From Bacteroidaceae bacterium (lineage in GTDB: Bacteria > Bacteroidota > Bacteroidia > Bacteroidales > Bacteroidaceae), in contig JAFXTO010000010.1 of the NCBI GenBank assembly GCA_017535725.1, positions 1 to 64,000 of the forward strand: a stretch of 64,000 nt of DNA, in the 5' to 3' direction. The notes under the pieces were generated by a model, which saw nothing but the letters and a program-made list of their open reading frames with translations, did not search any database and was not told where the DNA came from. Shown here one piece after another: positions 10,344-45,689 of this stretch. The first letter of the stretch is position 1, and every line of letters begins with the position of its first letter. Made by a program: the position numbers and the translations under genes.

Positions 10344-10430
10344 AATGAAAAATGAAAGAATGAAAAATGAAATATTTAAGTATCTCTTCGTATACCAAAC
10401 ATTTCATTTTTCATTCTTTCATTTTTCATT
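10344..10430. terminator. Bidirectional terminator with 30-bp perfect stem
   Basis: Bases 10344-10373 (aatgaaaaatgaaagaat and following) are the exact reverse complement of 10401-10430, with a 27-base loop. The arms are A- and T-rich on both strands and lie between the convergent HAD and GH43 genes. The right arm covers the GH43 stop codon. Confidence 0.6.
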
Positions 10431-23757: not shown

Positions 23758-23989
23758 TTTTCTGGCTTTTCGTTTAAAGACTTTAAGAGGGTTTAACACT
23801 TGCAGATGACTTTCGTATGCTTTTTGAACTTTGGTTATCCTACATTTTTATAATAAAAAGGTATTTTTTACACTTATACACTCTTATACGTCGTGAAAAA
23901 GCAGATGAAAGTATGTCCATAAAGTATGTTATTAAACATAAGTTGAAGACTTTTTAGCTTTTTTCTGCAGTTGTTAGTAAAAAAACCTA

Positions 23990-23997
23990 TAATTTTG
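23990..23997 (+). promoter_or_regulatory. -7 box for the fasciclin-SusCD operon
   Basis: TAATTTTG, 156 bases before the first ATG. A TTG at 23971-23973 is 16 bases upstream, shorter than usual. The long leader carries two direct copies of aaaaacgtctc (24011-24021 and 24070-24080). Confidence 0.5.
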
Positions 23998-24153
23998 GCA
24001 CGGTTTAGAGAAAAACGTCTCCAATCCCTCACTAATTAAGATGCCCTTAAGATTCATTTTCTGTTAGATAAAAACGTCTCAAAATCAAGAGAAAACATAC
24101 TAATGGTAACTCATCCAAAAGGAAATAGAAACAATTACATATTTATTAACTAA

Positions 24154-27024
24154 ATGGAAAACAGTATTCTCAAGCGAAGGCTCGCAAGCAGAGTGAGCCG
24201 ACTGTTTGCTGCAACGCTACTCGTTGGTGGTCCGCTGGGATGGTCGTCGTGTACCGACGATTTGCTCACTGGCACCCCGACGTGGTTGGGTAGCAGCATT
24301 TATGAAGAGCTGGAGAGCCGCGGCGACTTTCAGACGACGTTGGATCTCATCAATGACCCGGATCTTTCGGAAACGAACTATCCCGACATGCTTCGTCGCA
24401 CGGGTAGCCTTACGCTATTCGTTGCCGATGATGCTGCATGGTCGCGATTCTTGCAGAAACGCGGCGTCTCTTCGGTCAATGCACTGTCGAAGGCTGAAAA
24501 GAAGAACCTCCTGAAGGGTGCAATGATTAACAACGCGTACCTCATCGAATTGCTCAGCAACCGTCCTGGTGACCCACCAGCCGAGGGAACTTTCATGCGC
24601 CGCGAATCGCGTTTGGACATTTCCGACTCCATTCCAGTAATCATGTCCTCGGAGATTCCGGCACTCAACCCTGCTCGTGTGTCATACGATGCTGCTGGCA
24701 ACGCAATAACTACCGATTACTGGGCTGCTGTACGTGGTCGTAAGAATCTATACCTTTATAAAGACAATACCACGCCGACGATGGTTCATTTCACTCCTGA
24801 CTTTATGATTACGAATGACATCTTGACGGAGGATATTCAGAAGTTGACCAACGGAGAGTGTGAGGATGTGGATAGAAGCTACATCAACGGACAGCCTATC
24901 GCCAAGAACGAAGGCCGTTGGCCAGAAAAGGATGTGAATCCCGACGGCTCGCAGAAGAAGTTCCTTCAGGATATCACTTGTCAGAACGGTTATATCCATG
25001 TCTTGGAACGTGTGCCGGAACCCTTACCCAATATGGCAGAGATTATCCGCACGAAGCCCCAGTTCAGCATTTTTAGTTCCCTCTTGGAGCGCTACAGCTA
25101 CCCGCAGTTCATAGGTACCCGTGAAATGGACGGAAAGGTGGACTCCATCTTTGTGAAGCGTTATTTCAACGAAGGTAATGAGGAACGCGCGCTGAACACT
25201 GTGACGGAGACCAATACCAAGCTTAGTGAAGTTTTGGCCCTTGATCCCGGATGGAACAACTACTGTATCAACACGAACTCCAATACAATCACATCGGGCA
25301 GCGACGGAGCTGCTATCTTCGTGCCCACCGACGAGTGGATGCAGTACTACCTTACTACGGGAGAAGGACGCGCCATCGGAGCCAAGTATGGCAATAGCTG
25401 GGATAACGTACCCGACGAAATCGTTATTCCTTTCCTGAACAACTGCATCAAGAGCAGCCTCATCTCCACGACTCCCAGTAAGTTCGAGAACGTGAAGAAT
25501 ACCCAGTCAGAATCAATGGGCCTCACCATTGACAAGGTGGACAGCTGCTTCATGGCTTGTAACGGTGTCGTCTATCAGATGGATGCCGTTTATGTGGCTC
25601 CTGACCACCAGAGCGTCTTCTTCCCCGTTCGCCTGCGTCAGGATCAGGACCAGAGCATTATGTACCGTTTTATCTCCGATACGCGGCACAAGCCCTCTGG
25701 AGATAAGAAATGGACCATGAACTGGACGGGTTATGAGAATATGGCATACGTCAACTCTATGGCTTCTACCTACAGCTATCTCCTGCCCAAGGATGATGCT
25801 TTCAGCGCCTTCATAGATCCTTATTCTATTTATGAGCGCAAGCCTGCAGGATACAAGTTCTATGTAGAGCCCTCCGACCAGAACTTCCCCGTTTCGGCAA
25901 CGATTTATGAGGCCGAGTTGGATTCAGCAACGATGAAATATGTCGTCTCTGAGACTCCCACTACTTTCCAGCCTCGTACGTACGATACGACCTCTGGTAA
26001 GGCAGACGGTGGTCTGGGTCTTATCAACAACCGTCTTTCTGATTTCTTCGAGAACCTGATTATCGTCCATGGTCAGAAGGGCGCCGAGACCTTCCATGTA
26101 GGCCAGAGCATCTACCTCACCAAGGGTGGCAATCCTATCCAGGTTCGTTTTGATGGTGGTAAGGTGACGGGCATTGCCGGTAGTGCACAGATGGAAGAAG
26201 GAACCTTCCTTACTGTTTCCGATGTCTATGATCTCACGGAGAACGGAAACGGTGTCTCCTACCTCCTTGACGAACTTCCCACGACAACCCTGAGAACTCC
26301 TTACGAGGTCATCAACGATTCCGTGAAATATCCAGAGTTCACCCCCTTCGCAGACCTGCTCGCCAGTTCTTCCATCCTCAGTACAGAAGGCAGCTTTGAC
26401 GGCACTCATGTCTGTATCGGCCGTGCGCTGAACATCCTCGGTAACTTCCACTATACCATCTTTGTCCCGAAGGCTGAGAAAATCAATGCGCTCGTGGCTT
26501 CTCACAAGCTCCCCTCCTTAGAAGAATATGACGGTTGGGCTGCTGTGCTGGATTCTGCCATTGCCTTTAATCGTGATGGTCTGTTGACCGATGCCGAATT
26601 GGATTCCGTCCGTGTCCTGAAGGATTCCTGCCAGAACATTATCCAGACGACCATCAATAATTTCATCCGTTATCATGTGCAAGACGGTTCTATTTATATA
26701 GGTGGTGAACAAGGCCAGGGTGTCTACGAGACCGCATCCTTCGATGAGGACGCAAGCCGTTTCCGCCGTCTCAATGTGAACAACACGAGTGCCGGTATCA
26801 CCGTGACCGATGCCAGTAACAAGACTGTCAACGTGGTAAGCTCCGGCAGCAATATCGTATCCCGTCAGTATGTCTTCGATAAGACCACGCGCTGGTACTA
26901 CATCACGTCGCCTGTTGTCATCCACCTTATCGACGACGTCCTCCTTTATTCCAACGACCAGCTGCTTCCCGACGGTTTCCCCTATCCCGTGCCGCTCACA
27001 CGCGCTGAAGTAAAACGCAAATAA
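24154..27024 (+). CDS. Large fasciclin (FAS1)-repeat lipoprotein, first gene of the SusCD locus
   Basis: The 956-residue protein has a lipobox GWSSC (Cys33) and is probably surface-exposed. FAS1-like segments are seen at about 38-150 (LTLFVADDAAWSRFL), 305-460 (AAIFVPTDEWMQYYL), 515-580 (YSYLLPKDDAFSAFI) and 725-850 (YTIFVPKAEKINALV, then a NFIRYHVQDGSIYIGG block). FAS1 domains mediate adhesion or protein binding. It is followed after 12 bases by a SusC gene, so it probably partners the transporter. No catalytic signature noted. The ligand is unknown. Confidence 0.82.
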   Translation: MENSILKRRLASRVSRLFAATLLVGGPLGWSSCTDDLLTGTPTWLGSSIYEELESRGDFQTTLDLINDPDLSETNYPDMLRRTGSLTLFVADDAAWSRFLQKRGVSSVNALSKAEKKNLLKGAMINNAYLIELLSNRPGDPPAEGTFMRRESRLDISDSIPVIMSSEIPALNPARVSYDAAGNAITTDYWAAVRGRKNLYLYKDNTTPTMVHFTPDFMITNDILTEDIQKLTNGECEDVDRSYINGQPIAKNEGRWPEKDVNPDGSQKKFLQDITCQNGYIHVLERVPEPLPNMAEIIRTKPQFSIFSSLLERYSYPQFIGTREMDGKVDSIFVKRYFNEGNEERALNTVTETNTKLSEVLALDPGWNNYCINTNSNTITSGSDGAAIFVPTDEWMQYYLTTGEGRAIGAKYGNSWDNVPDEIVIPFLNNCIKSSLISTTPSKFENVKNTQSESMGLTIDKVDSCFMACNGVVYQMDAVYVAPDHQSVFFPVRLRQDQDQSIMYRFISDTRHKPSGDKKWTMNWTGYENMAYVNSMASTYSYLLPKDDAFSAFIDPYSIYERKPAGYKFYVEPSDQNFPVSATIYEAELDSATMKYVVSETPTTFQPRTYDTTSGKADGGLGLINNRLSDFFENLIIVHGQKGAETFHVGQSIYLTKGGNPIQVRFDGGKVTGIAGSAQMEEGTFLTVSDVYDLTENGNGVSYLLDELPTTTLRTPYEVINDSVKYPEFTPFADLLASSSILSTEGSFDGTHVCIGRALNILGNFHYTIFVPKAEKINALVASHKLPSLEEYDGWAAVLDSAIAFNRDGLLTDAELDSVRVLKDSCQNIIQTTINNFIRYHVQDGSIYIGGEQGQGVYETASFDEDASRFRRLNVNNTSAGITVTDASNKTVNVVSSGSNIVSRQYVFDKTTRWYYITSPVVIHLIDDVLLYSNDQLLPDGFPYPVPLTRAEVKRK

Positions 27025-27036
27025 ACAGGTCCGAAG

Positions 27037-30000
27037 ATGAAAACACTAAGATATTACATAACGCTTAGCCTCATGCTGGTCAGTTCACTGGCAATGGCTC
27101 AGATTTCGCGCATCAGCGGTACTGTCAGTGATGACATTGATGTACTTCCTGGTGCCAGCGTGGCGGAAGTTGACGCATCCAATCGTGTCATCAACGCTAC
27201 CGTGACCGATATGAATGGTAACTTCGTCCTTCCTATCAAGAGTGCGAAGAACCAACTGCGCATCAGCTTCATGGGCTACAAGACCCAGCAGCTGCCTATT
27301 AATAAGAATGTATTCAAGGTTACGATGCAGGATGCCACCAAGACGATGAAGGAAGTCGTCAAGACTGCCAAAAAGAAGATGAAGACTTCCGGTCTGGCCA
27401 TCCCAGAGCGTGAGGTCAGCTTCTCTGCACAGGGCATCTCCGCCAAGGAGTTCGAAGGCCTCGGCATCACTTCCGTCGACGAAGCCCTGCAGGGACGTAT
27501 CGCCGGTCTGGATATCGTGATGAACTCCGGTGACCTCGGTTCCGGTACCAGCATGCGTCTGCGTGGTGCCACCACCGTTTCAACCCTGACTTCCAACGAA
27601 CCGCTGATTGTTGTCAACGGCAATGTATGGAGCGTAGACCTTTCTGACTTCGATGTTGCTACTGCTAACGATGAGAAGTTTGCACAACTCCTGAATGTCA
27701 ACACGGAGGATATCGAGGATATCAAGGTGCTGAAGGATGCTGCCGCAACAGCTATCTGGGGTTCACAGGGTGCTAATGGTGTCATCGAAATCACCACCAA
27801 GCGTGGTCGCAAGGGCCCGCCCCGTGTGAATTACTCCGTGAAGATGACCATGACCCACCAGCCCGAAGGTATCAAGTTGCTCGACGGTGACCACTACACC
27901 ATGCTTCTGAAGGAATCCTACTTCAACCCCCAGCAGCAGACCTACGTCGGTCAAGTGCGTGAGCTCAACTACGACGAGACCTATTCCGAGTTCCTGATGT
28001 TCAACAAGAACACCGATTGGGTGGATCTCGTCAAAAAGAATGGTCTGCGCCAGAACCACTACATCACCATTGATGGTGGTGACGAGAAGACACAGTTCCG
28101 TATATCAGGTGGTTACGACCATGAGACGGGTACCATCATCGAGCAGAAGCTCAACCGTTTCACCACTCGTATGGCTCTTGACTATTCCGTCAACGACCGC
28201 ATCACCATCAACTCTAACTTCTCGTTGACATACACGAAGAACAACCGCAATTACGACGGACTTCTTGGTATCGCCTATAAGAAGATGCCTAACCTCTCAC
28301 CCTATCGTTATGAATATGATGCCGAAGGTACAGCATACAATACCGGAGAGTATTACGTTGTTCCTCGCTATGCCTTCACGGATTATGGCCGATTGACCAC
28401 CGCGCAGAGCAATAACTTCAACGACCAGCGTGACCTCCATAACCCGTTGGCAAGTGCGAAGTACGCCAAGAATGACCAGACGACCTACGACATCCAGCCG
28501 GAACTTATCCTGAACTACAAACTCCTCGGCTTGGACGACCAAAGCCATCAGTTGAACTACCAGGGTAAGGTGCTCGTTCAGGTTTATAACGAATACACCG
28601 ACCAGAGTTTCCCCGGTTCGCTTGTCACGGATAACTACTGGGATACAGGTACAGCTTACAGTTTCTCGCGCAAGAACCTTGCATTCACCACCACGCACAC
28701 CCTGAATTTCCAGCCCCACTTCAAAAACGAGGACCACTACCTCCTTGCCATGGGACGCTTCCAGCTTGTCAGTGGTAGTTCCAGTAACCAGAGTACGAAT
28801 GTCAACCGTCTGCCTGCCGACCTTGAGTCCGTCACTTCCGGTGCTCACGTCACAGGCATGGGCAGTGGTTTCAACGAGTGGCGTTCGCTTTACTACACCT
28901 TCTCCACGCACTACAGCTACAAGAGCCGCTATATGTTTGACTTCTCCATGCGTCTCGATGCTACTACCAAGTTCGGCCCGAACAACCGATGGGGTTACTT
29001 CCCCGCCATCTCAGGTCGTTGGAATATCATCGACGAGCCTTGGATGGAATGGGCACGCGACAAGATAAAGATGAGTATGTTCAGCGTACGTCCCGGTTGG
29101 GGTCTTGTTGGTAACCCTCCAGGACAGGACTACCTCTACATGAACAGCTTCAGTCAGGGATCACGCTACCTGAATCAGGTGTCCATGAATCCCAGCGGAC
29201 TGAAACTGACAGAACTCAAGTGGGAGAATATCTACACCTGGAACCTTGGTATCAACCTCAACTTTTTCGACGACCGTCTCAAGTTCGTTTTGGATCTCTA
29301 CCGCCGCACCACGAAGGACATGCTTATGGGCAATGCCGGTATTCCTTCCAGCAACGGTTGGTCTTCGCTCGCTTACAAGAATGTCGGTGACATGAAGAAC
29401 GAAGGTTGGGAGTTCCAGATCGACGGCGAGCGCTTGCTCAAGAAAGGTAAGTTCTATGTCGATGCATACGTCAACTTCGCCAACAACCGCAACGTCATCA
29501 CTGCTATGGATCCTCAGGTCCTTGCAGGGTTGAACATCGACTGGACAGAGAACAACCGCAGCGTGCTCCAGCGCGTGCAGCTGAACAACCCCTTCGGTTC
29601 TATCTATGGCTTCAAGTACAAAGGTGTTTACATGTACAACTATGATACTGCCCGCAGGCTTGTGCGCGAGGATAACCGCAACAACAAGGCCAATGGCACC
29701 ACGGTAGACCGTCTTCAGGAGAACATCAACAAGGGTTGGACTTATCCTATCGTTCTCAACTCCGACGGAACGTACGTCAAGGATGCACAGGGCGACCCCA
29801 TCCAGATGCGCTTTGCCTATAAGACATCGTCTGGCACGGGCTTCAAGTTCAAGGGTGGTGACGCCATCTATGAGGATGTGAACAACGATGGTAACATCAA
29901 CCAGCTCGACATCATGTACCTCGGCAACTCCCTGCCTCGTCTGACGGGTGGTTTCGGTTTCACGTTGCACTACGACCGTTGGGCCCTGCGTGCGAACTTC

Positions 30001-30429
30001 AACTACCGTATCGACTACGACATCCTGAACATGGCTCGTCTTGATATGGAGTCCATGATTTCCAACAACAACCAGAGCGAAGCCGTCAACTACCGCTGGC
30101 GCAAGGAAGGTGACATCACCACCATTCCCCGTGCAATGTTCGGTAACGGCACAAACTACAACACCCTCATCAGCGATCGCTTCGTAGAGGACGGAACCTT
30201 CCTGCGTCTGAACTTCCTGCAGATAAGCTATGGCTTCGACCCGAAGAAGCTGAAGAAGTGGCACATGAGCACCTTGAACTTCTATGCCAGTGCCAACAAC
30301 CTCTTCTGCCTGACGAAGTATTCCGGCGTGGATCCTGAAATCGGTTATGGCGGCTACGGTGTGACCACCGACGGCTCCCAGACTCCGCGTTCCAAGTCCT
30401 ACACCGTAGGTCTCACCATTGGTTTCTAA
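27037..30429 (+). CDS. SusC/RagA-type TonB-dependent outer-membrane transporter
   Basis: The 1130-residue protein has a signal peptide (cleavage after AMA, residue 21), a carboxypeptidase-regulatory-like domain (about 25-90: ISGTVSDDIDVLPGASVAEV), a plug domain (about 130-260: GIAGLDIVMNSGDLGSG-type region, EPLIVVNGNV, IKVLKDAAATAIWGSQGANG), then a 22-strand barrel ending YTVGLTIGF. The typical SusC motif DAAATAIWGSQGANGVIEI is intact. It would import a ligand captured by the SusD homologue 20 bases downstream. Substrate unknown, since the operon has no degrading enzymes. Confidence 0.95.
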   Translation: MKTLRYYITLSLMLVSSLAMAQISRISGTVSDDIDVLPGASVAEVDASNRVINATVTDMNGNFVLPIKSAKNQLRISFMGYKTQQLPINKNVFKVTMQDATKTMKEVVKTAKKKMKTSGLAIPEREVSFSAQGISAKEFEGLGITSVDEALQGRIAGLDIVMNSGDLGSGTSMRLRGATTVSTLTSNEPLIVVNGNVWSVDLSDFDVATANDEKFAQLLNVNTEDIEDIKVLKDAAATAIWGSQGANGVIEITTKRGRKGPPRVNYSVKMTMTHQPEGIKLLDGDHYTMLLKESYFNPQQQTYVGQVRELNYDETYSEFLMFNKNTDWVDLVKKNGLRQNHYITIDGGDEKTQFRISGGYDHETGTIIEQKLNRFTTRMALDYSVNDRITINSNFSLTYTKNNRNYDGLLGIAYKKMPNLSPYRYEYDAEGTAYNTGEYYVVPRYAFTDYGRLTTAQSNNFNDQRDLHNPLASAKYAKNDQTTYDIQPELILNYKLLGLDDQSHQLNYQGKVLVQVYNEYTDQSFPGSLVTDNYWDTGTAYSFSRKNLAFTTTHTLNFQPHFKNEDHYLLAMGRFQLVSGSSSNQSTNVNRLPADLESVTSGAHVTGMGSGFNEWRSLYYTFSTHYSYKSRYMFDFSMRLDATTKFGPNNRWGYFPAISGRWNIIDEPWMEWARDKIKMSMFSVRPGWGLVGNPPGQDYLYMNSFSQGSRYLNQVSMNPSGLKLTELKWENIYTWNLGINLNFFDDRLKFVLDLYRRTTKDMLMGNAGIPSSNGWSSLAYKNVGDMKNEGWEFQIDGERLLKKGKFYVDAYVNFANNRNVITAMDPQVLAGLNIDWTENNRSVLQRVQLNNPFGSIYGFKYKGVYMYNYDTARRLVREDNRNNKANGTTVDRLQENINKGWTYPIVLNSDGTYVKDAQGDPIQMRFAYKTSSGTGFKFKGGDAIYEDVNNDGNINQLDIMYLGNSLPRLTGGFGFTLHYDRWALRANFNYRIDYDILNMARLDMESMISNNNQSEAVNYRWRKEGDITTIPRAMFGNGTNYNTLISDRFVEDGTFLRLNFLQISYGFDPKKLKKWHMSTLNFYASANNLFCLTKYSGVDPEIGYGGYGVTTDGSQTPRSKSYTVGLTIGF

Positions 30430-30449
30430 CATCAAGCAAGATTGAAGAT

Positions 30450-32255
30450 ATGAAACACCTATATAATATTATAAAGAACGCTGCACTGGCCGTATGTGTC
30501 GGCCTGCTTGCAGCCAGTTGTGCCGACTTCCTCGAGATTGAGCCTCGCGACATCGTTACGGAGGACAACTTCTGGAACGAGAAATCTGACATTGATCAGA
30601 TGGTGGCAGGTTGCTATGCATCCATGCAGACCGAGGATTTCATCAACCGCTGCATCGTCTGGGGTGAACTCCGCAGCGACAACATCTTCCCAGGCAACAA
30701 TGTGCAGAACGACCACTATGACCTCTACCAGACCCTGCGTGAGAACCTGCTGTCCACCAATCAGTTCACGAACTGGAGCAGTTTCTATGCAGTCATTAAC
30801 AAGTGCAATACCATCATTCGTATGGCTCCCGTCGTCAGCGAGAAGGATCCCTCTTATCGCGAGAGCGACGTCCGTGCTACCATCGCAGAAGTGACGGCAT
30901 TGCGTTCTCTCTGCTACTTCTACCTGATTCGTGCATTTGAGGATGTGCCCTTCTACCGCGAGAGCGTACAGCAGGAGGACGAGGTTCACTACCTCGCACC
31001 CAGCTCCTTTGACTACATCCTGAAGGAAATCATCAAGGACCTCGAAGAGGTCAAGGGCGATGCTATTTCACGCTATCCTGTCACTGGTACAGATGCCATT
31101 GGCGGCACTTACAACAGCAATTGCAACCGCATCACCCGCTACGGTATCGATGCTATCCTCTGCGATATGTATCTTTGGACGGGCGAATGGGACAAGTGTA
31201 TTGCTTGCGCCGAGGAAATCATGGACCGCAAGGCTGCTGACTACAAGGAGTTCTACGGCAACCAGACCAGCAGCAGCTCTTCGTCGGCAACGCCAAAGGA
31301 GATGAATCCTGCGCCTTACGGTAGGGTGGCTTACCTCTATGATAATCCACGTCAGAATCCGTCAATGGCCTTCAATGCTATCTTTGGAACGGGTAACAGC
31401 TTTGAGAGTATCTTTGAGCTGAGTTTCAACTGGAACAGCAATGCCACCAGTTTTGTGAAGAGCATGTCTCTTGCACGCTTCTACGGCTCTGGAAACACGA
31501 ACACCTCTCTTGGTCCCAACAACTCTGGAGCAGGTTATCTCACCGTCAGCCCCAGTATCGTCAGTGATGTGAAGTCCAAGGCTTGGACCTACTTCCAGCA
31601 TCAGTACGACCTCCGTTTCTACAACATGATAGGTCCGGAGAGTAATGACTACAGCACCGGCTTCATCCGCAAGTTGGTGGCCGAGCGCTTTAACATTACT
31701 GCTGGTGGAACCAGTGCAGACATTCCTTTCAGCAGTGCGTTCACCTTGGATAGGGAGTTCAATCGCAACTGGATTTTCTATCGCCTGACCGACGTGATGC
31801 TCATGGAAGCTGAGGCCCTCTTGCAGAAAGCTTCTGACGAAAGCGCTGCCGATTACACGGACCTCCTTCATCAGGCCTTCGACCTCATCTATCTGGTCAA
31901 CCTCCGTTCGCTCTCCGACGAGTCCCGCAAGCTGGCTACCAACGCGCCTGCTCTGGCCACTCGCAACCTGATGATTACCTTCCTCATGAAAGAGCGTAAT
32001 CGTGAGCTGATGTTCGAAGGCAAACGCTGGTTCGACCTCGTGCGCTATGCCTATCGCGAGGGTAAACCCGATATCCTGCGTGCCAACGTTCCTTCTTCCA
32101 AGACGACGGGTGGCAGCAGCTCCAACCGCGGCTTCCCCAGCATGTCTCATCTCTTCTGGCCCTACAACAAGGAAGAATTGAAGGTCAACACGAACCTCAC
32201 GCAGAAGGCTATCTATAAGAACGAAGCCAGTGAGGGCATTGAAATGAATAAATAA
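30450..32255 (+). CDS. SusD/RagB-type surface lipoprotein
   Basis: The 601-residue protein has a lipobox LLAASC (Cys24) followed by ADFLEIEPRDIVTEDNFWNE, the characteristic SusD N-terminus. TPR-like helices include ATIAEVTALRSLCYFYLIRA, and the C-terminal part has MITFLMKERNRELMFEGKRW with FDLVRY, the conserved end of SusD/RagB. It caps the upstream SusC and binds ligand. A poly-Ser stretch (SSSSSAT) lies near 276. Confidence 0.95.
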   Translation: MKHLYNIIKNAALAVCVGLLAASCADFLEIEPRDIVTEDNFWNEKSDIDQMVAGCYASMQTEDFINRCIVWGELRSDNIFPGNNVQNDHYDLYQTLRENLLSTNQFTNWSSFYAVINKCNTIIRMAPVVSEKDPSYRESDVRATIAEVTALRSLCYFYLIRAFEDVPFYRESVQQEDEVHYLAPSSFDYILKEIIKDLEEVKGDAISRYPVTGTDAIGGTYNSNCNRITRYGIDAILCDMYLWTGEWDKCIACAEEIMDRKAADYKEFYGNQTSSSSSSATPKEMNPAPYGRVAYLYDNPRQNPSMAFNAIFGTGNSFESIFELSFNWNSNATSFVKSMSLARFYGSGNTNTSLGPNNSGAGYLTVSPSIVSDVKSKAWTYFQHQYDLRFYNMIGPESNDYSTGFIRKLVAERFNITAGGTSADIPFSSAFTLDREFNRNWIFYRLTDVMLMEAEALLQKASDESAADYTDLLHQAFDLIYLVNLRSLSDESRKLATNAPALATRNLMITFLMKERNRELMFEGKRWFDLVRYAYREGKPDILRANVPSSKTTGGSSSNRGFPSMSHLFWPYNKEELKVNTNLTQKAIYKNEASEGIEMNK

Positions 32256-32275
32256 AAACTGCATATTAGAAGACT

Positions 32276-34516: not shown

Positions 34517-34557
34517 GGCTCTTTTAAACGTATCTTTAACCCGAATAACAATCAGCA

Positions 34558-36519
34558 ATGAAAACATTCAGATATATAAACCTCCTGGCCATAGCCTTCC
34601 TGACAGCCGGTGCACTCGGATTCAGTTCCTGCGCCGACGAGTGGAACAGCCACTATGAAGGCGACGGCAGTGTGACGGCTGCCGATCAGCCCTCACTCTA
34701 CGAGCTCATCAAGGCCGACGGCACGTTGAAAGAGTTTGTCCGTGTACTTGACAACACGGGCTATGACAAGGTCCTCAATGGTTCTCAGGCCCTCACCGTA
34801 TGGGCTCCTGCTCTTACGACCGCACAGGCCGACAGCATTATAGCGCTCTACAATTCCCAGAAGCAGTCCATTATCACCATGCCGGATGGCTCCCAGCGCT
34901 ACATTCAGGACAAGGACAACAAGGCCATCACCCAGTTCCTTCAGAACCACATGGCACTTTATGGCCGCACCGTCTACGAGGGCTATTCAGATTCCCTGCG
35001 CCTGATGAATGGCAAATACGTCATGCTCCATGAGAACGACGTCAATGGCATTCCTTTCGCCCGCAAGAATATTGTTGCCAGCAATGGCGTGCTCTATGTG
35101 CTCCAGAGTGTGCAGCTCTTCTCACCCAGCGTGCGCGAGAGCTTGGCACTTGATGCAGACCTTGATAGTGTCGCCTCATTCTACGAACTCCTTGACCAGT
35201 ATAATCTGGACGAGGCTTCCAGTGTGCAGCGCGGTATTGTTGACGGTCGTATTGTCTATGCCGACTCCGTCCTTACGTTGTCCAATCAGCTGTATTCCAC
35301 CCTCGGATGGATCAACCGTGAGGATAGTTCTTACCTCTTCCTCGCTCCTACGAATGAGGTGTGGGCAAGCGAGCTGGAGCGTTTCAAGCCCATGTTCCAC
35401 TACGTTGCCGATATTCAGAACCGCGACAGCGTGGCTCTGTTGAATGCCAAGATGGCAATCATCGGCGGTCGCATCTTTAATATGAACGACCAGCGCGGCA
35501 AGACCGTGGAAGAAGCCGACACGCTCATCAATACGCTCTATGTACGCCATAAGGACTACTACGGTCTCAATGTCTTCGACAAGACCGCCTTGTTGGGTAG
35601 TCTGACTCCCTGGTATTGCTCCAACGGACGTGTCTACAAGGATGCAGAGGGACGTATCGATCCACAACGCACCATCCTCGAGGCTCGTTACCTCAGTGCC
35701 ACCTCGCCCCGCGACTTCCAGGTAGCCAAGTTGGCCTATAACGGTGAGATTTTCCCCTCAACATCCGCTTCCAACCAGACCTTTATAGATACCGTGACGT
35801 TTGAAGGCGTTCGCTACGAGACCGAGCAACTGAAGAAGGAGAACCTGCTCCGTGGTGAAAACTTCCTCGAACTCGCTCCCCTGACTTATCAGGGCCTGTC
35901 GCCTGCCAACATCACCAGTCGCGTCTATTTCTATCTTCCCAACACGTTCGCGAACCTCTATTATAATGTCTATGCCGTGATGGTGCCGTCCTTCCTTGCG
36001 CTCGACGGCTATAACCCCACAGAGGTGAAGCCCGTACCCTTCCGGGTGTATTTCCACGAACGTCTGGAGACCGCCCGTGAGTCGTACGGCAACGACCAGA
36101 GCATGACGGACAGCGCCTTCCTCCAGCGGTATCCCAACGAGGACCTGCTCTACGAGACTCAGAACAAGGATGCCCAGCGCTATGATGCCGCCAAGGGTAC
36201 TGGCCACATGCTTTCTGTCCCGGCCGACGAGACCCACAAGTACTCCGACACGGAATTCCTTGCTTCCGGTCGCGACATTGAGGTCATCTGTCTGCAGAAA
36301 GCCATGCATCCGCAGTTCTCCTCCTACAACTTCCTGAGCTATAACAACGATCCTGTTATCCGCTACAGCATTGAATCCAGCGCTACCACTGTGGGTATGA
36401 AACTACGCGGCCAGACGAATGTCTTGCGCATCAACCGCCTCATCTACATTCCGTTCGAGACTGAACAGGACGCCCTGAACTACCAGCTCGATTTGTCTAA
36501 TCTGAAAGAATACAACTAA
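34558..36519 (+). CDS. Fasciclin-domain lipoprotein
   Basis: The 653-residue protein has a lipobox GFSSC (Cys25). A FAS1-like domain occupies about 45-200 (SLYELIKADGTLKEFVRVLD, LTVWAPALTTAQADSII), and a second starts near 205 (ASFYELLDQYNLDEASS, YLFLAPTNEVWASELERF). The C-terminal 200 residues are beta-rich and not recognised. It ends two bases before the second SusC start, so cotranslation is likely. Third fasciclin protein of the locus. Confidence 0.8.
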   Translation: MKTFRYINLLAIAFLTAGALGFSSCADEWNSHYEGDGSVTAADQPSLYELIKADGTLKEFVRVLDNTGYDKVLNGSQALTVWAPALTTAQADSIIALYNSQKQSIITMPDGSQRYIQDKDNKAITQFLQNHMALYGRTVYEGYSDSLRLMNGKYVMLHENDVNGIPFARKNIVASNGVLYVLQSVQLFSPSVRESLALDADLDSVASFYELLDQYNLDEASSVQRGIVDGRIVYADSVLTLSNQLYSTLGWINREDSSYLFLAPTNEVWASELERFKPMFHYVADIQNRDSVALLNAKMAIIGGRIFNMNDQRGKTVEEADTLINTLYVRHKDYYGLNVFDKTALLGSLTPWYCSNGRVYKDAEGRIDPQRTILEARYLSATSPRDFQVAKLAYNGEIFPSTSASNQTFIDTVTFEGVRYETEQLKKENLLRGENFLELAPLTYQGLSPANITSRVYFYLPNTFANLYYNVYAVMVPSFLALDGYNPTEVKPVPFRVYFHERLETARESYGNDQSMTDSAFLQRYPNEDLLYETQNKDAQRYDAAKGTGHMLSVPADETHKYSDTEFLASGRDIEVICLQKAMHPQFSSYNFLSYNNDPVIRYSIESSATTVGMKLRGQTNVLRINRLIYIPFETEQDALNYQLDLSNLKEYN

Positions 36520-36521
36520 CA

Positions 36522-39500
36522 ATGAAAACAGTAGGATATATTTGTCTCTCCCTGTTTCTGGTAGCGGCTCCTCTTGCGGGCTTTGCGCAGGACGACTTCG
36601 AGGAAGAAGAGATCGACACCACCGCCATCCAGCGTGTGCGCAAGAATATCAAGAAACAGGAACCCACCCGCGAAATCACGGGTAGGGTAGTGAGCCAGCA
36701 AGGCCATACCCCTCTGGCAGGTGTGCTCGTTCAGTCTATTGCCGGCAAGGGCTATTCTGCCCTGACCGAGGAGGACGGCTCCTTCCGCCTTCAAGTTCCG
36801 CTCTACAGTTCTGCTGTGGATGTCACCCTACCTGGATATAATAAGGTACGCGTGGGACTCAATGATAGTGGCAAGCTCCGCGACATCGTCCTCCAGAGCG
36901 AAGCCGCCCGTGCTCTTTATGACGACGATGACAACATTCTCGGCCATGCCCGTGCCCGCAATTTCGACTTCTCCGGGGCTGCCAATATCTCCACCGAGAT
37001 AGAGAACCAGCTCGGAGCCGAGGTGCGCACCACCGAGCGCAGCGGCATCAACGGCCTGGGAGCCTACATGCAGGTAAGCGGCGTCAGCAGCTATCTGCTC
37101 AATGCCCAGCCACTGGTTGTGGTCGATGGCGTCATCACTGAGATGCAGTACGGTCGTGAGATGATTCACTCCGGCTTCTACAACGATGTCCTCTCCAACT
37201 TCAACGTGGGTGACATCGAGAGTGTGGAGGTCATGCGCAACGGAACGTCCCTCTATGGTACCAAAGGTGCCAATGGCGTCATCTTCATCCGCACGAAGCG
37301 CAACACCTCTCTGGCTACGCGCATCGCTGCCAGTGCCTGTGTGGGCGTGGAATTCATCCCCCGGCATTACAGCATGATGGACGGTACTCAGTTCAAGACT
37401 TACGCCAGTTCGCTCATGCAGTCCACCGGCACCAAGATGCAGACCTTCAAGTTCCTCGACGAGCGTCCCTACAACGCTGCCGACCCATATAACTACAACT
37501 ACTACTACAACAAGTACGCCAACAATACCGACTGGACGAAGGAAGTGTACAATGCAGCCGTTGCCCAGCGCTATGGACTCAGCGTGCAAGGTGGTGGTGA
37601 CGTTGCTAACTACATGCTCTCCATTGGCTACCTCCATGCCAACGAGGTTATCCAGGAGATGAACTACAACCGTTTGAACATCCGCTTCAATACCGACATC
37701 AAGATTACCGATTGGATTGATGTCCGCTTCGACGCCAGCTTCAGCAACAGCACCCGCAAGCTCTATGACCTGGGTGCTCCTGAGGAGTACGACCAGAGTA
37801 CGGTTACCTCACTGAACTTCCTGTCCTACGCCAAGTCGCCGATGCTTTCGCCTTACAGCTTCGTGTCCTCCAACACAGGTCCCGGTATCATCTCTAATGT
37901 CCACTTGGATATCGATGATGAAGACTATCTGTCGGAAATCTCGCAGCTGCGTAATGCCAACTATCAGTTGTCGAACCCCACGGCCATCCTTGAATACGGC
38001 ACGGCTCAGAACAAGAACTACTTCGACAACTCGTACGTCAACCTCTCTATCACTCCTGCATGGCATCCCAACCAGCACCTGAAGTTCTCCTCCCTCTTCA
38101 GCTATTCGTTGGTGAACACCAATGAGAAGCGCTATATCCCCATGAACGGCGTTCCGTCCTTCTGGGTCGAAGCCTTCCACCAGAAGATGCAGAACATGAT
38201 AGGTTCGCTCTATTCCCGTCAGAACAGCGTCCTCAGCGACACCAAGGTGGAGTGGAAGAACCGCTATGGTGCCCACAGCATTGACCTCCTTGGAGGCTTC
38301 CGCTACATGAACGAGGGCTACTACCTCACTCAGCAGAGCGGTTACAACACGGGTAACGACAAGACTCCTCAGATTTCCGGCACCGAGCAGAAGCAAATCG
38401 ATGGTTGCCGTGAGAACTGGGCCGACCTCTCGTGGTACGCCCAGGCCAAGTACAACTTTGCCAACCGCTACTATCTGCAAGGTGACATCGCCATGCAGAC
38501 TAACTCTCAGTTTGGCCACGACGCTTCCGGGCTGAAGCTCGCCGGCGTGGTATGGGGCGTATTCCCCAGCTTGCAGGCTGGTTGGGTGATGACCAACGAG
38601 AAATGGTTCGACGTGGCAGGCGTGGACTACCTCAAGCTGCAGGCCGGCTATGGTCTCAGCGGTAACGACGGACTGCCCTACGATGCCTCCAAGAGCTATT
38701 TCAAGAGCACCCTCTTCCTAAGCGCCACTCCCGGTCTCAGCTTCGAGAATATCGGTAATACCGAACTCAAGTGGGAGACCACACGTCGCTTCAATGCCGG
38801 TATCGAGGGTCGCTTCCTCAACAACCGTCTTTCCGCTGGCTTCAACTATTTCTACTCTTGGACCAGCGACTTGCTCACCCTGCGCAGTTCCAACTTCCTG
38901 ACAGGTATTGCACAGTATTGGAGCAACGGCGGCAAGCTCGAGAACCAGGGCTTCGATGTCAACGTGGGCGCTCATCTCATCTCCGGCAACAAGTGGAACT
39001 GGAGCATTGGAGCCAGTATGGGTCACTACGTCAACAAGCTCACAGAACTGCCTGATGAACTGGACTATCAAGACCACACCGTCCTTGGAGCTACCATTCG
39101 CAGCCAGGTCGGCAGCAGCATCAACCGCTTCTATGGCCTCGAGACAGCCCAGACAGCCTCTGGTGGAATCGTCTATGCCACGACCGCCGAGGCTAATGCC
39201 GACGGACTCTACCGCCTGGCTTCCGACGGAATCACCAAGACCTACTTCCAGGCTGGTGACGTGAAGTACGTGGATCGCAACCACGATGGCAAGATTGATG
39301 ACAACGACCGTACCATCATCGGCGATGCCAATCCCGATATCTATGGTAACATTTGGACGTCCCTGAGCTACAAGCGCCTCACGCTGGATATCGGCTTCAA
39401 CTACAGCCTTGGCAACGACGTTTACAACTACATGCGCCAGCAACTCGAGTCCGGCTCCCGCTTCATGAACCAGACGACAGCCCTGCTGCAGCGCTGGAGC

Positions 39501-39821
39501 TTCGAAGGACAGGTCACCGACATCCCACGTGCCACCTATGGCGATCCCCTTGGCAACAGCGCATTCTCTGACCGCTGGATTGAGGACGGCAGTTACCTGC
39601 GTCTGAAGAACATCACGCTCAGCTACAAGCTGCCCATCAACAACACCTACATCCAGGGTATCACCGTCTGGGGCAATGCCACCAATGTCTTCACCCTCAC
39701 TCGCTACCTCGGCTCTGACCCCGAATTCTCCATGGGCAACAGCGTCATCTCTCAGGGCATTGATGCAGGTTGGGTGTCTCAGGGTCGAACCGTCAACGTC
39801 GGTGTAAAGATTAACCTCTAA
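36522..39821 (+). CDS. Second SusC/RagA-type TonB-dependent transporter
   Basis: The 1099-residue protein has a signal peptide (ending AGFAQ), an acidic stretch DDFEEEEIDT, a carboxypeptidase-regulatory-like domain (about 54-115: ITGRVVSQQGHTPLAGVLVQ), a plug (PLVVVDGVITEMQYGREM, VEVMRNGTSLYGTKGANGVI) and a barrel ending VNVGVKINL. The NGTSLYGTKGANG segment is the degenerate form of the canonical D(A)ASA.YG.rGANG. It is diverged from the first SusC, so it may serve a different ligand or a heteromeric complex. Confidence 0.94.
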   Translation: MKTVGYICLSLFLVAAPLAGFAQDDFEEEEIDTTAIQRVRKNIKKQEPTREITGRVVSQQGHTPLAGVLVQSIAGKGYSALTEEDGSFRLQVPLYSSAVDVTLPGYNKVRVGLNDSGKLRDIVLQSEAARALYDDDDNILGHARARNFDFSGAANISTEIENQLGAEVRTTERSGINGLGAYMQVSGVSSYLLNAQPLVVVDGVITEMQYGREMIHSGFYNDVLSNFNVGDIESVEVMRNGTSLYGTKGANGVIFIRTKRNTSLATRIAASACVGVEFIPRHYSMMDGTQFKTYASSLMQSTGTKMQTFKFLDERPYNAADPYNYNYYYNKYANNTDWTKEVYNAAVAQRYGLSVQGGGDVANYMLSIGYLHANEVIQEMNYNRLNIRFNTDIKITDWIDVRFDASFSNSTRKLYDLGAPEEYDQSTVTSLNFLSYAKSPMLSPYSFVSSNTGPGIISNVHLDIDDEDYLSEISQLRNANYQLSNPTAILEYGTAQNKNYFDNSYVNLSITPAWHPNQHLKFSSLFSYSLVNTNEKRYIPMNGVPSFWVEAFHQKMQNMIGSLYSRQNSVLSDTKVEWKNRYGAHSIDLLGGFRYMNEGYYLTQQSGYNTGNDKTPQISGTEQKQIDGCRENWADLSWYAQAKYNFANRYYLQGDIAMQTNSQFGHDASGLKLAGVVWGVFPSLQAGWVMTNEKWFDVAGVDYLKLQAGYGLSGNDGLPYDASKSYFKSTLFLSATPGLSFENIGNTELKWETTRRFNAGIEGRFLNNRLSAGFNYFYSWTSDLLTLRSSNFLTGIAQYWSNGGKLENQGFDVNVGAHLISGNKWNWSIGASMGHYVNKLTELPDELDYQDHTVLGATIRSQVGSSINRFYGLETAQTASGGIVYATTAEANADGLYRLASDGITKTYFQAGDVKYVDRNHDGKIDDNDRTIIGDANPDIYGNIWTSLSYKRLTLDIGFNYSLGNDVYNYMRQQLESGSRFMNQTTALLQRWSFEGQVTDIPRATYGDPLGNSAFSDRWIEDGSYLRLKNITLSYKLPINNTYIQGITVWGNATNVFTLTRYLGSDPEFSMGNSVISQGIDAGWVSQGRTVNVGVKINL

Positions 39822-39830
39822 TGTTTAATA

Positions 39831-39895
39831 GATATTTCGTTATATCGACATTTCGTTATATCGACATTTCGTTATTCCGATAATTTCGTAAATCC
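39831..39895 (+). repeat. 16-bp tandem repeat between the second SusC and SusD
   Basis: Four units of the type gacatttcgttatatc start at 39831, 39847, 39863 and 39879. They fill the 80-base gap between the two genes. The ttcgttat core is related to the ataacg units found at 14.0 and 48.8 kb. Confidence 0.85.
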
Positions 39896-39901
39896 GAATC
39901 A

Positions 39902-42115
39902 ATGAATATGAAACACTTCAAATATATCCTGCCCCTTGCGCTGCTGGCGATGATTGGAGCTTCCATCACCTCGTGCGACGATATGCTTGATATGGGCAAT
40001 GATGATGTCCTCTATGCCGACGAAAACCATCTCACTCAAGGCACCGACACCGTCAACTCCTTCGTGGGTATCCTCGCCCAGCTGCAGAAGATTGCCGTTC
40101 GCACCAATCTCTATGGTGAACTTCGCGGTGACTTGGTTGTCGTCAACGATAACGCCGATGCCGACCTGAAGGCTATTTCCAACTTCGAGGTCTCGGATTC
40201 CAATGCCTACAACAATCCGCGTGACTACTACGCTGTTATCAACAACTGTAACTACTATCTGGCCAATGCCGATACCACGCTCATGGAGCGTCGTTACGAT
40301 GCCACCACGCTCTCTGCCTACGACTTCCGCGTCTTCCAGGCCGAGTACTGTGCTGTGCGTGCCATCCGTGCCTGGGTCTATCTCCAGCTCGGTCAGGTCT
40401 ATGGTGATAACATCCCCCTCGTCACGGAGCCTATCCTCTCGTTGGATGATGCCAACAACATCCTCGCCAACACCCAGAAGAAGTCCTTCCTTCAGATCTG
40501 TAACTATTTCATCGATGACCTCAAGCCCTACGTGTCCTGGTTCGCCTATCCCTACCATCACGAGACCTACGGCTACTCCATGCCCAGCCGCATGGCTGTT
40601 ATGCCCATTCAGCTCGTTCTGGGTGACCTCTATCTGTGGAGTGCCAGCCTGAATGGTGGCGACCAGACCCTTGCACGCGAAGCTGCCAAGTGCTACTACG
40701 ACTACATCAGCTGGCTGCCTACGGAACTGGGTGTGGACAACAACACGGGCTACAAGCAGAAGACCGTAACTTCCACTCACCGTTCCTATTGGGCCACCAA
40801 CTGTTTCATCACCAGCAATTTCAATAGCTACACAGTAAGCAACGCCTACTGGAGTACCACTTCCTTCGGCACCTCCTCCGATGAGGTTATTTCGGCCATT
40901 GCTATGGACTCCTTGGCTTCCGAGGACAACTACAACGCCCTCCGTGTGCTGTACAACTACGACCGCGAGAATGAGAAGGTCGAGGCAAGCATTTCACCCT
41001 CCAAGATCTGCTACGACTATTCCGACAGTCAGGTCTATTCCCAGATGTACAACGATGGTACACAGAACGTGTCAGGCTTTGTTCCTCAGAATGCCCTTGA
41101 GGAAACCATGGTACAGCGCCACTATGTCGGCGACCTGCGTCTGGCTGCCAACCTCAACCTCAACCGTCGTATAGATAATGACTACGAATCCCAGACCATC
41201 TGGAAGACCTATATGGCACAGGATGTCATCGTCTATCGTGTCGGTCAGGTGTACCTCAATTTGGCGGAGGCCCTGAATATGGCAGGCTTCCCCAAGTTCG
41301 CCCTTGCTATCCTCACCGTAGGTCTGGACAATAACGTCATCGAGAACGAGGTCCTGCGCAACTGTCAGACCACTTCCGACAGTACTTTTGTGCAGTACTT
41401 CGACTTCCCATCGCGCTTCTTCCAGACCCGTGTGCTGAACTACACCATCACTGGAACCACCACCCGTGTGACCTACAACCTCGCTGAGAATGATGCCAAC
41501 GTCAATCAGCTTGGTCTCCACGCTCGTGGCAGTGGTTTCAACCCGCTGAATCCCAACTACTATGCACCCAGCAACGACCAGCCCAGCGACCTCACCCTGG
41601 GTGGTGGCTATCCAGCCCAGCCCCCCGTCTATGTCGCTGCCGTCTCGTCGTTCAGTGCTTCTGAAAAGGACCTGAAGACCATCGTTGATGCCAATACGGA
41701 GTTCTTAGCTTGGGCAGGCGAGCATGATGGTATCGAGGTTATTGACCTTACGCAATATGCCACCACCGACCGTCTGGACGAGGTCAAGAAGTTCGATTCC
41801 CGGATGAAGGCTTACTCCGACAGCATCCAGGCCGACTGGGAGGAGGCTGCCAACGAGTGGTTCCATGTGTATGGATACCCCCAGGTCTATGCCCGTCAGC
41901 TCGTGGTTGTAGACAGCCTGCTCGATGTTGAGTCGGCTCTGGAGACTCCCTTCGAGGGCTTCCGCTTCGGCCGGCTCATGCGTGCTGCCTATCGCAGCAG
42001 CAATCCGGGAGCCTACATGTCTGCAAAGCTCTCCAAGCGTGATGCTTCTCTCGCTTCCGTGGTCTCTGACCCCAAGCGCTGGTTCATCAACTGGAAGGGT
42101 CTTATCGGACAATAG
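39902..42115 (+). CDS. Second SusD/RagB-type lipoprotein
   Basis: The 737-residue protein has a lipobox SITSC (Cys25) followed by DDMLDMGNDDVLYADENHLT, and early segments resemble the SusD-like N-terminus (VNSFVGILAQLQKIAVRTNL, YGELRGDLV). The helical part includes YYAVINNCNYYLANADTTLM and FRVFQAEYCAVRAIRAWVYL. The C-terminus has WEEAANEWFHVYGYPQV and GFRFGRLMRAAYRS, a diverged form of the ELxFEGxRWxDLxR end. It is longer than typical SusD (500-600). Met3 is an alternative start. Last gene of the operon. Confidence 0.88.
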   Translation: MNMKHFKYILPLALLAMIGASITSCDDMLDMGNDDVLYADENHLTQGTDTVNSFVGILAQLQKIAVRTNLYGELRGDLVVVNDNADADLKAISNFEVSDSNAYNNPRDYYAVINNCNYYLANADTTLMERRYDATTLSAYDFRVFQAEYCAVRAIRAWVYLQLGQVYGDNIPLVTEPILSLDDANNILANTQKKSFLQICNYFIDDLKPYVSWFAYPYHHETYGYSMPSRMAVMPIQLVLGDLYLWSASLNGGDQTLAREAAKCYYDYISWLPTELGVDNNTGYKQKTVTSTHRSYWATNCFITSNFNSYTVSNAYWSTTSFGTSSDEVISAIAMDSLASEDNYNALRVLYNYDRENEKVEASISPSKICYDYSDSQVYSQMYNDGTQNVSGFVPQNALEETMVQRHYVGDLRLAANLNLNRRIDNDYESQTIWKTYMAQDVIVYRVGQVYLNLAEALNMAGFPKFALAILTVGLDNNVIENEVLRNCQTTSDSTFVQYFDFPSRFFQTRVLNYTITGTTTRVTYNLAENDANVNQLGLHARGSGFNPLNPNYYAPSNDQPSDLTLGGGYPAQPPVYVAAVSSFSASEKDLKTIVDANTEFLAWAGEHDGIEVIDLTQYATTDRLDEVKKFDSRMKAYSDSIQADWEEAANEWFHVYGYPQVYARQLVVVDSLLDVESALETPFEGFRFGRLMRAAYRSSNPGAYMSAKLSKRDASLASVVSDPKRWFINWKGLIGQ

Positions 42116-44955: not shown

Positions 44956-45053
44956 TACTCCTTTCCTACATTTTTTTGCTTCCGCGTGGGTTACTTATTC
45001 CACGTTGTTGCATCAAAGGACAAATAAAAACGCTCAGCATTCCACCCAGGACG

Positions 45054-45689
45054 ATGAAGAAATGGACCGATGAACAGATGGTCGCGGCTGTGGCTTCGCA
45101 TAATGAGGCCATGATGGAACGTTTCTACCGCGACTGCAAGGCCTACTTCCGCAGCCACGCAGGAGCCCTCTTCGTCGCCGACGAACAAGTGGATGACCTC
45201 TTCCAGGAGGCGATGGTACATCTCTGGCGTGAGATTGAGACCCACCGCATCGAAGTCAGGGAGGGCGTCCTCTGCCGATGGAGTGAGGGACAGGCGGTGC
45301 CCATGACCAGCTCCCTCTTCACCTTCCTCCTCGCCATCGCCAAGCGCAAGCACTGGGAACTCCTCCGCAAGGATTCACGCCTGCAGTTGACCGACGAAGC
45401 AAACGTGCTGGATGTCTTGGACCGGAGCCGTTATGCCGACGACGACGAGGTGACGGATGAAACCGAGGCACGGGAACATGTGGTGGCCGATGCCGTACTG
45501 GGGATGAGTGACCGCTGTCGCCAGATACTGACACTCTTCTACTACGAACAACGTTCGCTCGACGAGATTCTGGCCATACGCCCGGAGAACACCTCCAAGG
45601 TGGGACTGAAGACCAGCAAGTACAAATGTATGCAACGCCTGCGGGACGTCGTCAAACAACGCTTCAGCCGTCTGCACATGAGCATCTGA
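45054..45689 (+). CDS. ECF-type RNA polymerase sigma factor
   Basis: I start it at MKKWTDEQMVAAVASHNEAM (211 residues); the longer frame (26 more codons) starts in the intergenic region and lacks similarity. Region 2 is seen around FYRDCKAYFRSH and VDDLFQEAMVHLWREIE, with FLLAIAKRKHWELLRK at its end. Region 4 is around SDRCRQILTLFYYEQRSLDE and KVGLKTSKYKCMQRLRD. It directs RNA polymerase to an unknown regulon. It lies 98 bases after the PrsW gene and 43 before the membrane-protein gene. Confidence 0.87.
   Translation: MKKWTDEQMVAAVASHNEAMMERFYRDCKAYFRSHAGALFVADEQVDDLFQEAMVHLWREIETHRIEVREGVLCRWSEGQAVPMTSSLFTFLLAIAKRKHWELLRKDSRLQLTDEANVLDVLDRSRYADDDEVTDETEAREHVVADAVLGMSDRCRQILTLFYYEQRSLDEILAIRPENTSKVGLKTSKYKCMQRLRDVVKQRFSRLHMSI

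Follow-up and report, generated by a model that had tools for sequence, protein, structure and literature searches.

The window analysed here is a stretch of 64,000 nucleotides (G000:C10:1-64000) from the genome of a Bacteroidaceae bacterium (2.9 Mb, 76% complete), and the system in question is a set of seven co-directional open reading frames (ORFs) on its + strand, spanning 24154-42115, which encode two SusC/RagA TonB-dependent transporters, each followed by a SusD lipoprotein (SusCD), and three lipoproteins built from fasciclin (FAS1) domains. Our main finding is that this cassette, F1-C1-D1-F2-F3-C2-D2, is conserved in its genus and well beyond it. We hypothesise that it encodes a double SusCD glycan importer in which the FAS1 lipoproteins act as surface glycan-binding proteins (SGBPs), a reading that would extend the picture of Sus-like uptake and of the utilisome and that we regard as probable rather than firm, and that its substrate may be pectic, which we suggest more tentatively.

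The ORF calls give the following layout, with intergenic gaps, from F1 to D2, of 12, 20, 20, 41, 2 and 80 bases.

23925..24001, + strand: conserved block 5' of F1 and its likely promoter region, with elements at positions 23925, 23943 and 23988
24154..27024, + strand: F1, FAS1 lipoprotein, 956 amino acids (aa); Pfam Fasciclin 41.2 bits; periostin match by family profile
27037..30429, + strand: C1, SusC/RagA TonB-dependent transporter, 1130 aa; TIGR04056 660 bits, TIGR04057 signature above cut-off
30450..32255, + strand: D1, SusD lipoprotein, 601 aa; Pfam SusD_RagB 68.9 bits, SusD-like_3 44.7 bits
32276..34516, + strand: F2, FAS1 lipoprotein, 746 aa; Pfam Fasciclin 31.3 bits; TGFBIp match by family profile
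34558..36519, + strand: F3, FAS1 lipoprotein, 653 aa; Pfam Fasciclin 25.1 bits; periostin match by family profile
36522..39821, + strand: C2, second SusC/RagA transporter, 1099 aa; TIGR04056 543 bits
39902..42115, + strand: D2, divergent SusD lipoprotein, 737 aa; family profile matches SusD structures

Conservation and joint inheritance of the cassette

Homologues of F1 were found in 23 of the 41 nearest genomes, namely its own and 22 of the 24 from the same genus, and in none of the 16 nearest genomes outside the genus. With a family profile of F1, 46 of 393 Bacteroidales genomes matched, giving 22 near full-length places, two of which are in the own genome, and 89 of 395 genomes of the phylum matched, mostly via single FAS1 domains. 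Outside Bacteroidales, near full-length F1 ORFs (726-755 aa) occupy eight places in seven genomes of two families. A cassette was counted as complete when all seven genes stood in order, including stretches in which D2 is cut by the stretch end, as it often is. Complete cassettes are present in 20 of 34 stretches from the same genus (L026-L059), in 12 of 20 from other Bacteroidales genera (L130-L149) and in all eight stretches around the near full-length F1 ORFs outside the order, which are eight of the 14 stretches L195-L208. Five further stretches with weak matches in the order (L210-L214) add two complete cassettes and three that are cut, and L209, taken from another flank of the L149 contig, contains none of the cassette genes. 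Together the complete cassettes come from ten families of the class, eight of them in Bacteroidales (one being the window's own) and two outside that order, with most intergenic gaps between -16 and 50 bases and extremes of -194 and 110. Because the identical order recurs in dozens of loci, the arrangement is not due to chance. An earlier note on this DNA had made a conserved fasciclin-SusCD linkage its key prediction; the linkage is kept in the genus, across the eight families of the order and in two families beyond it, a wider spread than had been expected, and since it is kept beyond Bacteroidales we conclude that the seven genes do form a unit, with the FAS1 lipoproteins as part of the uptake system.

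Departures from the order were also recorded. Ten of the 34 genus stretches are cut by contig or stretch ends; besides these, L045 carries two F2 genes and breaks off within C2, F2 is missing from L046 and L058, and in L050 no intact F1 was called. Both named relatives, L024 and L025, also break off within C2, and C1 of L025 is uncalled, being displaced by a longer antisense ORF. Among the other genera of the order, F2 is placed ahead of F1 in L143, L147 and L148, L142 has a split D1 and an extra F2, L146 has no F2 in place, L139 and L145 are cut, and in L130 F2 is located after D2 (seen in L150). The remainder of L195-L208 consists of two six-gene variants (L203 and L205) and four weak FAS1 matches without nearby SusCD.

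The six-gene form reads FAS1-SusC-SusD-FAS1-SusC-SusD, with one FAS1 gene fewer. Behind it, both loci have a gene for about 631-636 aa, whose product in L203 has BNR repeats according to Pfam, and a gene for about 421-423 aa; L205 has a sulfatase gene nearby. Separately, L204, L206 and L208, from three genomes outside the class, encode a large FAS1 protein (588-811 aa) without SusCD in neighbourhoods that are alike, with an opposite-strand gene of about 355 aa followed by genes of about 390, 310, 342 and 330 aa. One contig (G132:C7; L130, L150 and L167) carries two successive cassettes with a hybrid two-component regulator between two F1 genes.

Separate searches were made with F2 and F3, scoring at most two to three candidates per genome. 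Of 68 F3 places, 53 have F2 at 0.5-3.5 kilobases (kb) on the 5' side; of 88 F2 places, 44 have an F1-like match at 5.5-9.5 kb on the 5' side, a space that fits one SusC and one SusD, and 42 of the 393 genomes show the F2-F3 or the F1-F2 spacing. These fractions are descriptive, because the 68 F3 and 88 F2 places were picked by hand among the matches listed, most rows with a single FAS1 domain being left out, and the 56 F1 or F1-like positions were likewise hand-picked, partly for closeness to F2 matches. No F1 was among the matches listed upstream of 17 of the 53 F2-F3 pairs, so half cassettes without F1 may exist; one of the 17 is the second cassette of the own genome, on contig C29, where F1 lies further off behind two F2 genes.

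Within the genus the cassette occurs as three subtypes, type A (the window's), type B (found in the own genome on contig C29, where F2 is duplicated) and type C. Trees were built for the six scorable genes, D2 being left out, from 53 loci, and their patristic distances correlate at 0.73-0.97, compared with a maximum of 0.25 when labels were permuted 200 times for each pair. Correlations of this kind are raised by a shared species history. Paralogy is the stronger test. In all six trees each type forms a monophyletic group with support of 1.0 (A with 14 loci, B with 12, C with 2), even though one and the same genome can carry both A and B. These six parts of the cassette are inherited jointly.

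The FAS1 lipoproteins and the SusCD pairs

All of the genes, coordinates, lengths, order and gaps that the earlier note had read from the window were reproduced by the ORF calls, and its identification of three FAS1 lipoproteins and two SusC transporters is borne out by family searches. Each of F1, F2 and F3 exceeds the Pfam cut-off for Fasciclin (PF02469, 22 bits), and C1 and C2, which are only 22.8% identical to one another by BLAST, both exceed the TIGR04056 cut-off of 368 bits and are therefore members of the SusC/RagA family.

F1 is made of about four tandem FAS1 domains (residues 37-290, 290-532, 495-709 and 726-946), F2 of two (17-211 and 221-495) followed by a C-terminal region of about 496-746, and F3 of two (34-207 and 207-361) followed by a C-terminal region of about 362-653; no family was assigned to these C-terminal regions of about 250-290 residues. 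An iteratively trained FAS1 model, applied to the 53 loci, counted four domains in F1 in 40 loci, two in F2 in 51 and two in F3 in 48; the weakest repeats come from this model, which was trained on the same F1, F2 and F3 families. In a control run on 964 other ORFs it gave ten matches, all of them FAS1 proteins in L185-L194, loci that had been brought in by the FAS1 search of phylum genomes. The earlier note had also proposed a search against structure-based profiles, and here all three family profiles match periostin or TGFBIp: the best matches among solved structures are TGFBIp for F2 (E 1e-45) and periostin for F3 (E 1e-44), with a weaker match to periostin for F1 (E 7e-15). Family profiles were needed for this, as F1 as a single sequence gave no match to solved structures.

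A candidate lipid-bearing cysteine is invariant in the alignments of all three families (F1 Cys33 in 34 of 34 rows, F2 Cys27 in 33 rows and F3 Cys25 in 33 rows). A simple lipobox pattern is present in 32 of 32 F2 sequences, in only 23 of 33 F1 and in only 14 of 32 F3. In complete cassettes F1 stands before C1, and F2 and F3 after D1, so that all three are lipoproteins encoded beside susCD, as is expected of SGBPs. Fasciclin is the sole Pfam family above its cut-off in F1-F3, and none of the domain families typical of SGBPs (SusE/SusF type, Ig-like) was found in them by Pfam.

C2 falls below the cut-off for the TIGR04057 signature (33.5 against 46.2 bits). For D2 the single sequence reaches 17.7 bits with Pfam SusD_RagB, under the cut-off of 23.1, and its family profile (A7, 19 rows) matches solved SusD proteins with a best E of 2.6e-15, aligning with NanU (4l7t) over profile positions 16-414. 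The lipobox pattern is present in 35 of 35 D1 and 5 of 5 D2 sequences. Judged by sequence, D1 and D2 are SusD/RagB lipoproteins, D2 through its family profile. Two other assignments were discarded, since the Pfam matches of F1 to GH131 and of C1 to Dockerin are weak and below cut-off.

Proposed function, alternatives and known systems

The neighbours of cassettes outside the genus suggest what the system may be for. Among 121 flank proteins within 9 kb of a cassette side in 35 stretches, counted for the first 25 families, at least seven are GH43, five Glyco_hydro_cc, four two-component propeller (Reg_prop) and three PL11 proteins; GH95, GH51, GH28 and GH2 occur at least twice each, and GH115, GH10 and GH39 at least once each. 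A glycoside hydrolase (GH), polysaccharide lyase (PL) or hybrid two-component regulator accompanies nine of the 20 loci from other genera of the order (L130, L132, L133, L137, L139, L141, L144, L147 and L148; by Pfam, part of the loci being scanned by named protein). Outside the order, a PL4 rhamnogalacturonate lyase adjoins D2 and a GH115 adjoins F1 in L198, L195 has GH2 and FGGY sugar kinase neighbours, and L199 a carbohydrate esterase. These neighbours point to plant cell-wall glycans, and several of the enzymes are pectic, with no claim made here of a pectin-specific enrichment over the SusCD background.

We propose that the seven genes form an operon-like cassette for a twin importer of Sus type at the outer membrane. 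Oligosaccharides would enter through each SusC barrel under its SusD lid by the known pedal-bin mechanism, and the FAS1 lipoproteins would occupy the position held by SGBPs in other Sus systems, F1 serving C1-D1, and F2 and F3 serving C2-D2. The substrate would most likely be a branched plant cell-wall glycan, such as pectic rhamnogalacturonan, arabinan or a substituted xylan. The window cassette, being apart from enzymes, would take in fragments that other microbes, or enzymes from elsewhere in the genome, have released. Glycan binding by FAS1, the pairing of the parts, complex formation and the substrate are all what we infer. More speculative is a single fixed twin utilisome, in which FAS1 lipoproteins bridge two different SusCD transporters. 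Such a utilisome would take up two different pieces of a single plant polysaccharide, say its backbone and its side chains, and would have arisen before the sampled orders diverged; we hold this to be a doubtful extension.

Several observations weigh against the glycan importer. Inspection of the ORFs showed no enzyme or regulator within or directly beside 24154-42115, and no GH or PL family is among the first 25 of 139 families matched by 85 type A flank proteins from the same genus, a tally that covers 85 of 99 such proteins, the 14 left out including one hybrid two-component system (HTCS)-like (L084) and one GH43-like (L087) protein. Only three of the eight cassettes outside the order have a carbohydrate-active neighbour by Pfam, with few genes per stretch and these partly scanned; L196 and L197 have instead a sub-cut-off beta-helix match and a lactate-utilisation (LUD) protein, and L146 is surrounded by ATP synthase-like and DnaG-like genes, as judged by eye. 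The enzymes beside the cassette vary between loci, and because SusCD loci are generally enzyme-rich, such neighbours do not prove pectic specificity. In the review literature, FAS1 domains are known more for their interactions with surfaces and matrix. Finally, the eight loci outside the order do not form a single clade in the six rooted trees, so that transfer or rooting error is possible.

It is also conceivable, if unlikely, that the cassette comprises two independent SusCD-FAS1 systems for different substrates, neighbours since they are jointly useful and not one machine. The low identity of C1 and C2 is consistent with this, as is the variable placing of F2, which stands upstream of F1 in L143, L147 and L148 and is missing from its place in L046, L058 and L146. 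Against it, ten families preserve both the order and the orientation of the genes, and the cassette types agree in all six gene trees.

The earlier note favoured a different ligand, with the FAS1 lipoproteins as adhesins for a protein, glycoprotein or host-matrix component, coupled to uptake or attachment. The profile matches to the matrix proteins periostin and TGFBIp fit this, as do the stress that passages of FAS1 reviews lay on surface interactions, and the fact that no enzyme adjoins the window cassette. We consider it improbable, because the cassette outside the genus is often found in plant-cell-wall enzyme loci, and it recurs in other orders of the class; a protein or host-matrix ligand found no support. 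The named relatives L024 and L025 moreover bear RUG isolate names, which we take to mean rumen uncultured genomes. Equally improbable is a RagAB-type peptide importer with accessory lipoproteins: SusCD systems are able to import peptides (PMC7661554), and in the own genome the second cassette is followed, four genes on, by a DPP-IV-like peptidase, but no peptidase is among the first 25 families of any of the flank tallies, whereas GH and PL families are present in those from outside the genus.

The nearest known systems to the double glycan importer that we favour are the levan and dextran utilisomes of Bacteroides thetaiotaomicron, which consist of SusCD, an SGBP and a surface GH and in which the extra lipoproteins sit on the SusC lip (PMC7618045). 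As in these, a SusC barrel, a SusD lid and extra surface lipoproteins are encoded together. The utilisomes have one kind of SusCD, one SGBP and one surface endo-glycanase, whereas the cassette has two SusCD, three FAS1 lipoproteins and no enzyme; moreover, utilisomes are complexes, and the cassette proteins are only predicted to form one. The SGBP of the levan utilisome has Ig-like domains and a levan-binding domain, in contrast to the FAS1 lipoproteins of the cassette, and the starch utilisation system, SusCDEFG, shares with the cassette the presence of extra surface lipoproteins, two of which (SusE and SusF) stand there beside one SusCD (both from PMC7618045). Compared with SusCDEFG, the cassette has a second SusCD and no SusG-type enzyme. 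FAS1 domains would stand in place of the starch-binding SusE and SusF, a difference that we take to be one of fold.

The cassette is often found, outside the genus, inside polysaccharide utilisation loci (PULs) with hybrid two-component regulators, whereas that of the window has directly beside it neither carbohydrate-active enzymes nor a sensor or regulator of the hybrid two-component, ECF/anti-sigma or SusR type and on this ground is not itself a PUL. The claim of the earlier note that the locus has no glycosidase and no regulator therefore stands for the window cassette and fails for the system elsewhere, where other families often have GH and PL genes and hybrid two-component regulators. 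Periostin and TGFBIp resemble F1 in their tandem FAS1 domains, but the cassette proteins are bacterial lipoproteins in a transporter operon, and F2 and F3 carry an extra C-terminal region.

FAS1 proteins have been seen near Sus-type genes before. The legend to Fig. 6 of PMC4891872 labels one in a Sus-type PUL for cellulose/hemicellulose from Flavobacteriaceae, Gramella portivictoriae among them; it is named there as a label only, and the section with this legend describes no twin SusCD cassette. A mussel symbiont has a highly transcribed FAS1 protein as well as SusCD pairs (PMC10199937). A full-text search, with most subscription papers and all preprints outside its scope, gave no description of the twin SusCD-FAS1 cassette among the papers listed, and FAS1 proteins as an SGBP class of Sus systems, as we would place them, were not found described in the literature searched.

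The strict order of two SusCD and three FAS1 genes in ten Bacteroidia families suggests a fixed machine and bears on the question of why some systems need two transporters. If FAS1 binds glycans here, a module associated with adhesion gains a role in transport. The cassette would also serve as a marker of loci that break down plant cell walls, among them orphan copies, like the one in the window, that enzyme-based PUL searches may miss.

Upstream block and flanking genes

The three upstream elements (23925, 23943 and 23988) occur in the same order 5' of F1 in L024 and L025. Neither 23925-23940 nor 23943-23963 has another copy in the own genome at 0 or 1 mismatch; at two mismatches the first has four further matches, against three for a reversed control, and the second none. 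As the two elements searched occur nowhere else at 0-1 mismatch, no regulon shared with enzymes was found with them in the own genome. Glycosidases in the same regulon were what the earlier note thought would speak against its enzyme-free system: enzyme-linked loci do occur elsewhere, and no such shared regulon was found in the own genome. The third element presumably resembles a Bacteroidales -7 box, although a scan with an assumed consensus failed to single it out, and scans for sigma-70 sites and terminators gave numbers no higher than in shuffled sequence.

Upstream of the window cassette lies a divergent efflux operon of the TolC/MacA/MacB-like kind, in which MacB was identified by Pfam and the rest from translations, and downstream are GxxExxY-like, sigma-factor-like and DapA-like ORFs, read from their translations; the sigma-factor-like ORF, recognised by eye, is at 44976-45689, about 2.9 kb from the cassette. 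Ten of the window's larger non-cassette ORFs were scanned, and the nearest glycosidase among them is a GH43 (10426-11478, - strand), at a distance of about 12.7 kb. It sits between HAD hydrolase and putative porin genes, near sugar-nucleotide genes, and is unlinked to the cassette. The own genome has 21 places matching GH43, some sharing one ORF.

In other genomes the flanks of type A cassettes are mainly housekeeping genes. Exceptions include L064, with lyase-like and GH43-like neighbours (by BLAST), and L060, with a regulator-like neighbour; type A is poorer in PUL-like genes, not free of them. In the named relative L025, a protein of the Glyco_hydro_cc cluster is encoded about 5.6 kb 5' of F1 on the opposite strand. 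Type B cassettes have a GH43 one or two genes 5' of F1 in six genomes (by Pfam in L091 and L095, by similarity in four), and in four of the six a protein of 925-951 aa is encoded between GH43 and F1. This protein passes Glyco_hydro_cc in L091, and its relative in L095 passed no family cut-off.

Seventeen stretches, some of which overlap, encode a protein of 900-1360 aa (cluster k1) near the cassette. The members L152:131-3808, L175:205-2934 and L091:421-3255 pass Glyco_hydro_cc, and that of L175 has H-lectin and sorting-tail domains in addition; it is possibly a partner enzyme of the cassette. Type C was examined downstream in two loci, one of which, L079, has regulator-like and GH115-like proteins by similarity. 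A secreted protein of 1120-1280 aa (cluster k10: L079:915-4580, L080, L134/L153 and L151), without a Pfam match in the two members scanned, is encoded directly 3' of D2 in type C and in family f111, its relative in L151 being more distant.

Following the type B cassette, LacZ, DUF6057, PD40 and DPP-IV-like genes are found in four genomes including the own (by Pfam in the own genome and by similarity in the others). In the second cassette of the own genome (L001 and L002, contig C29) these are a LacZ-type GH2, a DUF6057 protein, a PD40 protein and the DPP-IV-like peptidase, and a CxxCH motif was seen by eye in the PD40 protein.

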